Assembly: GCF_022968825.1 (NCBI RefSeq)
Contig: NZ_JALHKS010000006.1
Coordinates: 124,001 to 188,000 of the forward strand
Source: Chryseobacterium salipaludis
GTDB taxonomy: Bacteria > Bacteroidota > Bacteroidia > Flavobacteriales > Weeksellaceae
Length of the DNA: 64,000 nucleotides
Reading direction: 5' to 3'
Both the position numbers and the translations under genes were made by a program. Below are positions 34,487 to 36,109 of this stretch, piece after piece. Position 1 is the first letter of the stretch, and each line of letters starts with the position of its first letter. The notes beneath the pieces are model-generated. The model did not search any database. It was given only the letters and a program-made list of their open reading frames with translations, and had not been told where the DNA came from.

Positions 34487-36109
34487 ATGTTAACAGTATC
34501 TAATTTATCTTTACAGTTCGGCAAGCGGGTGCTTTTTGATGAGGTAAATATTATGTTTTCAAAAGGGAACTGCTACGGCATAATTGGTGCCAATGGCGCC
34601 GGAAAATCCACCTTTCTGAAAATTCTTACCGGAAAACAAGATCCTACTACCGGATCAGTATCACTGGAGCCGGGTAAGCGCATGTCGGTTCTGGAACAGG
34701 ATCACTACGCGTATGATCAGTTCACGGTACTGGACACTGTATTAAGAGGTAATAAAAAACTATACGAGATTAAATCTGAAATGGATGCTTTGTACGCCAA
34801 GGAAGATTTCTCAGATGAAGACGGAATCAAAGCCGGGGAACTTGGCGTTCAGTATGACGAAATGGGTGGCTGGAACTCCGAGTCTGATGCCATGACTATG
34901 CTTTCCAATGTAGGCATCAAAGATGACATGCATTATCAGATGATGAGCGAACTGGAAAACCAGGATAAAGTAAAAGTATTGCTGGCACAGGCGCTGTTCG
35001 GAAATCCGGATGTATTGATCCTCGACGAACCTACCAACGACCTTGACATTGCGACTATTTCCTGGCTGGAAGATTTCCTGGCCGGATATGAAAACACCGT
35101 GATCGTGGTATCGCACGACCGCCACTTCCTCGACACCGTCTGCACGCACATTGGTGACCTGGATTACGCGAAATTAAACCTGTACACCGGGAACTACTCT
35201 TTCTGGTATCAGGCTTCCCAGCTGGCAACGAAGCAACGTCAGCAGGCTAATAAAAAAGCAGAAGAAAAGAAAAAAGAACTTCAGGATTTCATCGCGCGTT
35301 TCTCCTCCAACGTAGCAAAAGCGAAACAGGCAACGGCGCGTAAAAAGATGATCGACAAGCTGAACATCGAAGATATTAAACCTTCTTCCCGACGCTATCC
35401 CGCCATTATTTTTGATGCCGAGCGCGAAGCGGGTGACCAGATTCTGGAAGTAAAAGGCCTGGAAAAGACGCGTGACGGCGAATTGCTGTTCTCTGATATT
35501 AACCTTAATTTAAAGAAAGGTGACAAAGTAGCGGTACTCTCAAGAAACTCTTTGGCAATTACAGAGTTTTTCCAGATCCTAGCCGGAAATACCGAAGCTG
35601 ACAAAGGAACCTTTAACTGGGGAATTACAACGTCCCAATCCTACATGCCGCTGGATAACAGTGAATTCTTCCAGGATAATGTTAACCTGGTAGACTGGCT
35701 GCGGCAATTTACAAAGAATGACGAGGAAAGGCACGAGGAATATATGCGCGGCTTCCTTGGGAAAATGCTCTTCTCCGGAGATGAAGCCCTGAAATCCTGC
35801 ACCGTACTTTCCGGAGGCGAGAAGATGCGCTGTATGTTCAGCCGCATGATGCTGCAACGTGCCAACGTACTGCTGCTAGATGAACCTACGAACCACTTAG
35901 ACCTGGAAAGTATTACCACACTCAATAACTCACTGGTAAGTTTCAAAGGAAACATTCTGCTGGCATCACATGACCACGAAATGCTGCAAACGGTTTGTAA
36001 CCGCATCATTGAACTGACGCCGAAAGGAATCATCGACCGCGAAATGACATACGATGAGTACCTGGAAGACAAAAAAGTGAAAGAACTGCAAACGCAGATG
36101 TATTCATAA
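34487..36109 (+). CDS. ABC-F family ATPase with one degenerate ATP site (YbiT/Uup-like)
   Basis: Soluble tandem ATPase of 540 residues; ABC-F proteins act on the ribosome (translation factors or antibiotic protection). Domain 1 has an intact Walker [10 protein letters not shown] (34-42) and Walker [13 protein letters not shown], but its signature reads MSELENQDK (153-161) in place of LSGGQ. The inter-domain linker is helical and Lys-rich (about 240-300). Domain 2 has a non-Walker [10 protein letters not shown] (352-361) where GxNGxGKST belongs, but an intact signature LSGGEK (441-446) and [12 protein letters not shown]. So Walker A of domain 1 plus signature of domain 2 can form one good site, and the other site lacks both halves. 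No membrane segments. Confidence 0.93.

Follow-up and report, generated by a model that had tools for sequence, protein, structure and literature searches.

The D-loop of the partner domain also contributes to a composite nucleotide site in ABC proteins. Such a site is otherwise formed by the Walker A, Q-loop, Walker B and H-loop of one domain and the signature of its partner, by the account in PMC7756269. ABC-F proteins are usually described as carrying consensus Walker A and Walker B motifs in both domains and as binding two ATP molecules; they occupy the E site of the ribosome in the ATP-bound closed form, and hydrolysis is needed for them to leave (PMC11282234).

The protein described here is encoded in a stretch of 64,000 nucleotides from Chryseobacterium salipaludis (the window). 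An earlier note on this DNA had likened it to CFTR and TM287/288. These two transporters keep Walker A at their degenerate site and are therefore imperfect parallels, although the clustering of the motif losses at one composite site was borne out. Yeast Pdr5 is a closer match, with one composite site altered and the other intact. In Pdr5, all four motifs of one site (Walker A, Walker B, H-loop and signature) deviate from the canonical letters, and restoring these throughout is reported to have abolished activity (PMC7756269). Pdr5 may thus serve, by analogy, as a precedent for a fully degenerate site with function kept. It differs in being a membrane transporter, whereas the window protein mostly keeps Walker B2 and H-loop 2 and has no membrane domain. 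No membrane family was present among the five domain families listed for the protein. This means that it would work like the degenerate-site ABC transporters and would not be one of them.

Among ABC-F proteins, MsrD and Vga(A) are similar in that their two sites are described as doing different tasks (PMC10314930). Their asymmetry is reported from catalytic glutamate mutants of both domains (PMC10314930), whereas that of the window protein can be read from its sequence, with the dead Walker half belonging to domain 2. M. tuberculosis EttA is comparable in that its two sites are described as engaging unequally ahead of hydrolysis, but both of them bind and engage nucleotide (PMC8782954). The earlier note knew of no characterised asymmetric flavobacterial branch. 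For the loss of Walker A2 in YkpA, searches of open-access papers gave no report (preprints on the four E. coli paralogues, cited in PMC11282234, may discuss the YbiT signature); functional asymmetry as such is known for MsrD and Vga(A) by the account in PMC10314930.

The closest described proteins are YbiT and YkpA. E. coli YbiT (9njf, 9nlf) resembles the window protein in length and domain order, and its signature 1 is also non-canonical (VAPGW). It differs in that the identity is 44% and Walker A2, Q-loop 2, Walker B2 and H-loop 2 are all canonical. Bacillus YkpA, represented by a B. velezensis relative (L206) in place of the B. subtilis 168 protein, shows 58% identity, the same linker and an intact site I. 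It shares the losses of Walker A2 (GRNELAVTT) and Q-loop 2, and its signature 1 is altered (LGGSE); however, it keeps G352 and the D-loop 1 histidine H185, and its signature 1 is less decayed than that of the window protein. In B. subtilis without ykpA, ribosomes are reported to stall most strongly on polyarginine, and weakly though specifically on polylysine and polyglutamate (PMC11381351).

Family placement and gene neighbourhood

The best NCBIfam model for the 540-residue protein was NF011646 (PRK15064.1, ABC-F family ATPase, YbiT model), with an E value of 3.6e-191 and 636 bits, which does not reach the curated cut-off of 762. The B. velezensis (676) and Peptoclostridium (664) proteins also scored below this value and the E. 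coli protein (1067) above it; none of the 21 genomes of the host's family passed it. In the PDB sequence comparison, E. coli YbiT (9njf_Y) was best (E 2.6e-155). The two PF00005 stretches and the PF12848 linker make the protein an ABC-F in the broad sense, and it belongs to the YbiT/YkpA subfamily, as the best ABC-F models and structures are YbiT and the YkpA-type rows stand together on the tree (99). It departs from the usual description of ABC-F proteins, in which both domains have the two Walker motifs in consensus form, in that Walker A2 is absent. An antibiotic-resistance ABC-F (ARE) was considered and rejected: all ARE models listed (Vga, Lsa, Msr, OptrA, Sal and others were compared) lay far below their cut-offs, e.g., 244 against 725 for Vga.

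A Foldseek comparison of the AlphaFold2 model again put E. coli YbiT 9njf_Y first (E 3.0e-52), and in VIA-align 2 the chains 9nlf_Y and 9njf_Y and PoxtA (7p7q) were tied at Z 28.2. Because the model leaves the placement of its domains uncertain, the rmsd is large (24 to 28 Å, for 455 to 494 residues); with a pTM of 0.46 and a low-confidence linker, neither this placement nor the whole-chain rmsd is informative on the nucleotide sites.

Table. Features of the locus in window coordinates. Residue counts refer, in this order, to the Bacteroidota rows (83), the Bacillota/Fusobacteriota/Mycoplasmatota rows (17) and the YbiT-type rows (10) of the alignment, or to all 110 rows.
Feature	Position	Strand	Site and state	Evidence or remark
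yebC-family gene	31465-32205	-		three genes from the ABC-F gene
OmpA-type gene	32311-33780	-		in a row with the yebC-family gene and smpB, divergent from the ABC-F gene
smpB, divergent neighbour	33858-34316	-		E 2.1e-55, above cut-off
ykpA/ybiT-type ABC-F gene	34487-36109	+		ORF, 540 aa; NCBIfam and PDB sequence matches
Walker A1 GANGAGKST, residues 34-42	34586-34612	+	site I, intact	canonical in 82/82, 17/17, 10/10 covering rows
Q-loop 1, Q71	34697-34699	+	site I, intact	Q in 83/83, 17/17, 10/10
Domain 1 signature position LENQDK, residues 156-161	34952-34969	+	site II, lost	Ser in 12/83, 1/17, 1/10
Walker B1 and D-loop 1, residues 177-187	35015-35047	+		E181 110/110; H185 3/83, 10/17, 2/10
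H-loop 1, H210	35114-35116	+	site I, intact	110/110
Interdomain linker, PF12848 ABC_tran_Xtn (P-site tRNA interaction motif), residues 224-307	35156-35407	+		E 2.8e-18
Walker A2 position SRNSLAITE, residues 352-360	35540-35566	+	site II, lost	complete in 0/83, 0/17, 10/10
Q-loop 2 position, L389	35651-35653	+	site II, glutamine lost	Q in 2/83, 1/17, 10/10
Domain 2 signature LSGGEK, residues 441-446	35807-35824	+	site I, intact	S-G-G-E in 110/110
Walker B2 and D-loop 2, residues 462-472	35870-35902	+		E466 70/83, 6/17, 10/10; H470, D472 110/110
H-loop 2, H495	35969-35971	+	site II, kept in the window protein, drifting in relatives	74/83, 14/17, 10/10

The smpB gene adjoins the ABC-F gene in 45 of the 80 loci with flanks. 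These 45 are the loci at least 76% identical to the window protein; at 71% or less, smpB was found within the stored flank in none of 35. A yebC-family gene is present in 37 of the 45 (37/80 overall), and three of the eight loci lacking it have too short a flank. In B. subtilis, YebC2 is described as an anti-stalling factor that associates with the ribosome (PMC11990639). The two neighbours would suit a translation factor, but are no more than suggestive. The genes around it look like a small group concerned with ribosome rescue or the relief of stalling. The letters TATTTTTG at 34459-34466, 20 bases upstream of the ABC-F start codon, fit the TAnnTTTG promoter box of Bacteroidota. On the other side of the gene, the overlapping 144-residue frames at 36195-36629 and 36542-36976 (-), in different reading frames, look by eye like one frame-broken ferritin-like gene, and a further ferritin-like gene (also named by eye) at 37014-37703 adjoins this pair. 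No NCBIfam match was obtained for 36542-36976 or 37014-37703.

Motifs of the two composite sites

Site I is made up of GANGAGKST, Q71, D180/E181 and H210 of domain 1 with LSGGE (441-445) and HLD (470-472) of domain 2. Site II is made up of residues 352-360, L389, D465/E466 and H495 with LENQD (156-160) and D185. The alignment confirmed the earlier note in its main claim, that the frame at 34487-36109 encodes one intact composite site and that the motif losses are confined to the other, and the letters it pointed to at 34-42, 352-361 and 441-446 are all present. The domain 1 signature is broken, as had been proposed, but not in the register MSEL (153-156): the true equivalent of LSGGQ is LENQD (156-160), because Peptoclostridium (L202) has LSGGE in those alignment columns. 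The term "fully degenerate" suits the Walker A, Q-loop and signature of site II and does not suit Walker B2 or the H-loop; the site has lost the first three, the D-loop 1 histidine is also replaced (D185), and D465/E466, H495 and T359 are retained. The changes at L389 of the Q-loop and at D185 come in addition to those named in the earlier note.

A displaced Walker A in domain 2 or a real signature in domain 1, which had been named as grounds against this picture, was ruled out for the window protein by the alignment and a pattern search. The pattern GxxxxGK[ST] was absent from the C-terminal half in all 83 Bacteroidota rows and all 17 rows from Bacillota, Fusobacteriota and Mycoplasmatota, and was present in 10/10 YbiT-type rows. 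The domain 1 signature pattern [LIFVMT]SGG[EQWS] was found in 0/83, 1/17 and 0/10 rows, respectively.

Conservation and history of the two sites

The 194 homologues were reduced at 90% identity to the 110 rows of the Table. The YbiT-type rows are from four gammaproteobacteria, one Neochlamydia and five Bacteroidota genomes (L164-L168). These five carry a second version resembling that of E. coli: their best match was an E. coli-like YbiT with an intact Walker A2, instead of a YkpA-type protein. Bacillota and other non-Bacteroidota rows came from plasmid (24 of 271) or phage (2 of 51) records, and the group of 17 includes two contigs labelled phage (L223, L225), which were assigned by tree and identity. 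The sampling included the best 80 of 557 relatives, among which the Kaistella treverensis protein is 94% identical to the window protein and puts the genome close to Kaistella, and 70 of 86 strong-match genomes. These 86 genomes, from a phylum sample of 296 Bacteroidota, match at E 1e-100 or better, and the gene is absent or diverged in many Bacteroidota. One 69% identical protein of flavobacterial type is on a contig titled Candidatus Rokubacteria, which is probably mis-binned (L123). A Limosilactobacillus fermentum plasmid copy (L211) was dropped, as its frame is broken at 400 residues and it gave two tblastn pieces; an IS30 transposase is located just downstream of it. Row L163 was retained although its first 61 residues are missing.

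All nine site I residues are canonical in 82/83, 17/17 and 10/10 rows (109/110 in total), the sole exception being L163, which starts at residue 62, at the contig start. A complete Walker A2 was found in none of the 184 YkpA-type rows among the 194, before the redundancy cut, and, as the Table gives, in none of the 83 and 17 rows after it. The split loss is thus more than chance and a conserved trait, which was the outcome that the proposed alignment of homologues was to decide. The Walker A2 lysine (K358) is present in 4/83, 9/17 and 10/10 rows.

The division of labour runs inside single motifs. E181 of Walker B1 serves site I and D-loop 1 faces site II; residue 185 varies, while E181 in the same stretch is fixed in every row. 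N184 and D187 are fixed too, so D-loop 1 seems to be only partly released from constraint. Conversely, E466 of Walker B2 serves site II and HLD (470-472) serves site I: residue 466 drifts to Q, D, T or N, and the adjoining HLD never changes (L471 109/110). This split inside single motifs is, to us, the most convincing test of the site asymmetry. An entropy test over 20 position pairs counts related sequences as independent and is descriptive only.

The YbiT-type rows, from E. coli and others, are also without signature 1, but have Walker A2, Q-loop 2, Walker B2 and H-loop 2. The decay of signature 1 therefore appears older and wider than the loss of Walker A2. On a tree of 58 rows with the site II columns removed (a quick method with SH-aLRT support only, and a long-branch warning for L219), the complete Walker A2 state changes once, between the YbiT-type and YkpA-type rows (SH-aLRT 99), and the lysine alone changes eight times. 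Bacteroidota and Bacillota-type rows are not cleanly separated. Outliers at signature 1 are Peptoclostridium, where a single LSGGE is intact, and Cytobacillus, which has LTGGE. Assuming that the canonical state is ancestral, we read the probable order as an early weakening of signature 1, after which the Walker A2 glycines disappeared where the YkpA side begins and the lysine was then lost repeatedly. An asymmetric flavobacterial branch, as suggested before, does not hold, because the same loss, as one change on the tree, is found in relatives from Bacillota, Fusobacteriota and Mycoplasmatota. The clade-wide asymmetry marks the YkpA side of the YbiT/YkpA family.

The same genome encodes two further ABC-F proteins (L002 and L003; matches with E 5e-70 and 4.6e-42). 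In L002, P-loop and signature are intact in each half. L003 also keeps its two signatures and a canonical second P-loop, and in its domain 1 P-loop, AKNGSGKST, only the first glycine differs. Eight L002-like proteins (L191-L198) from the same family of genomes are complete in the same way as L002. This means that the split is a trait of the YkpA branch, not of the ABC-F proteins in these bacteria.

In 37 gap-free coding sequences of close relatives (41 were tried and four with length differences were dropped), the whole-gene pN/pS was 0.077, a rough ratio since pS is about 0.69 uncorrected. The values were 0.066 for domain 1, 0.039 for residues 241-310, the lowest part of the gene, and 0.097 for domain 2; Walker A1 gave 0 and the former Walker A2 (352-360) 0.10, like the remainder of domain 2. 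The gene is thus under strong purifying selection and is not decaying, and the former Walker A2 is under ordinary constraint with the new letters S-[KR]-[ND]-S-x-A-x-[TS]. In the AlphaFold2 model, this region forms a strand (347-351) and a helix (355-365) with pLDDT of about 93, and the strand-loop-helix resembles that of domain 1 (strand 29-33, helix 37-47).

Readings of the altered site

The arrangement points to a YkpA/YbiT-type ABC-F translation factor working with one hydrolytic ATP site, a reading to which we give a probability of roughly 0.6. Site I would be formed by Walker A1, Q71, E181 and H210 of domain 1 and the signature and D-loop of domain 2. With ATP bound there, the two domains would close and give the protein a shape that fits the ribosomal E site, with the linker extending to the P-site tRNA; hydrolysis at site I would release the factor from the ribosome. 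Site II would not hydrolyse ATP, would probably hold no tightly bound nucleotide and would be kept as a structural contact. Binding to the E site and help at charged stretches would be expected by analogy with B. subtilis YkpA/YbiT and E. coli YbiT, as described in PMC11381351 and PMC12096078. The one-ATP cycle itself is inferred.

Some observations do not sit easily with a single working site. T359, D465/E466 of Walker B2 and H495 survive here and in most relatives, so that some nucleotide contact at site II may occur, and K358 survives in the 4/83 and 9/17 rows mentioned above. In addition, the domain 2 glutamate mutant of MsrD is reported to be the more harmful one, and the domain 1 mutant kept some resistance (PMC10314930). 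This pattern is opposite to that expected from a dead domain 2 if all ABC-F proteins worked alike, and the roles of the sites need not match across the family. Site II might instead bind ATP tightly without hydrolysing it, as in many ABC exporters, so that two nucleotides are held and one is hydrolysed. The Bacteroidota rows could accommodate this, as they have T or S at 359 in 79/83 (T 71, S 8), D465 in 79/83, E466 in 70/83 and H495 in 74/83; so could the lysine in 9/17 of the other YkpA-type rows and the predicted model, which retains the strand-loop-helix of Walker A2. However, the glycines that wrap the phosphates are gone, and 79/83 Bacteroidota rows have lost the lysine and 81/83 the Q-loop 2 glutamine, which makes this the less likely of the two readings, in our view, though not a remote one.

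The replacement of the former Walker A2 is not random: S352 is present in 74/83, A357 in 79/83 and T359 in 71/83 rows with S in eight more, S352 and A357 are invariant in alignment A1 (48 rows), and pN/pS at 352-360 (0.10) is like that of the other domain 2 residues. These letters might be a new motif, site II having adopted a regulatory contact or some other ligand. They can also be explained as a helix cap and packing, however, and other YkpA-type rows differ at 352-360 (e.g., GxNEIAKTT), so that this seems improbable. There is a similarly slim chance that both sites work, site II with unusual residues; the Walker B2 glutamate and the H-loop histidine of the window protein agree with this, but Walker A2, Q-loop 2 and signature 1 have been lost together. 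Gene decay, or an artefact of alignment or sequencing, found nothing in its favour and was excluded: the frame is open, the same state is found in 184/184 YkpA-type rows, pN/pS is 0.077, although a rough ratio, and a second P-loop is found nowhere in domain 2.

Double mutants of both catalytic glutamates are a standard tool for ABC-F proteins. The chances are about even that a one-ATP cycle with an empty site II operates in the whole YkpA-type branch, across Bacteroidota, Bacillota, Fusobacteriota and Mycoplasmatota, that a change of the residue equivalent to E181 suffices for trapping on the ribosome and that the second site is dispensable. The asymmetry named for MsrD and Vga(A) is here fixed in the sequence of a widespread housekeeping factor, and a natural branch with one intact and one broken site would be a direct way to ask what the second ATP is for. 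Such a single-site branch would also alter the design and the reading of trapping mutants for YkpA-type proteins.
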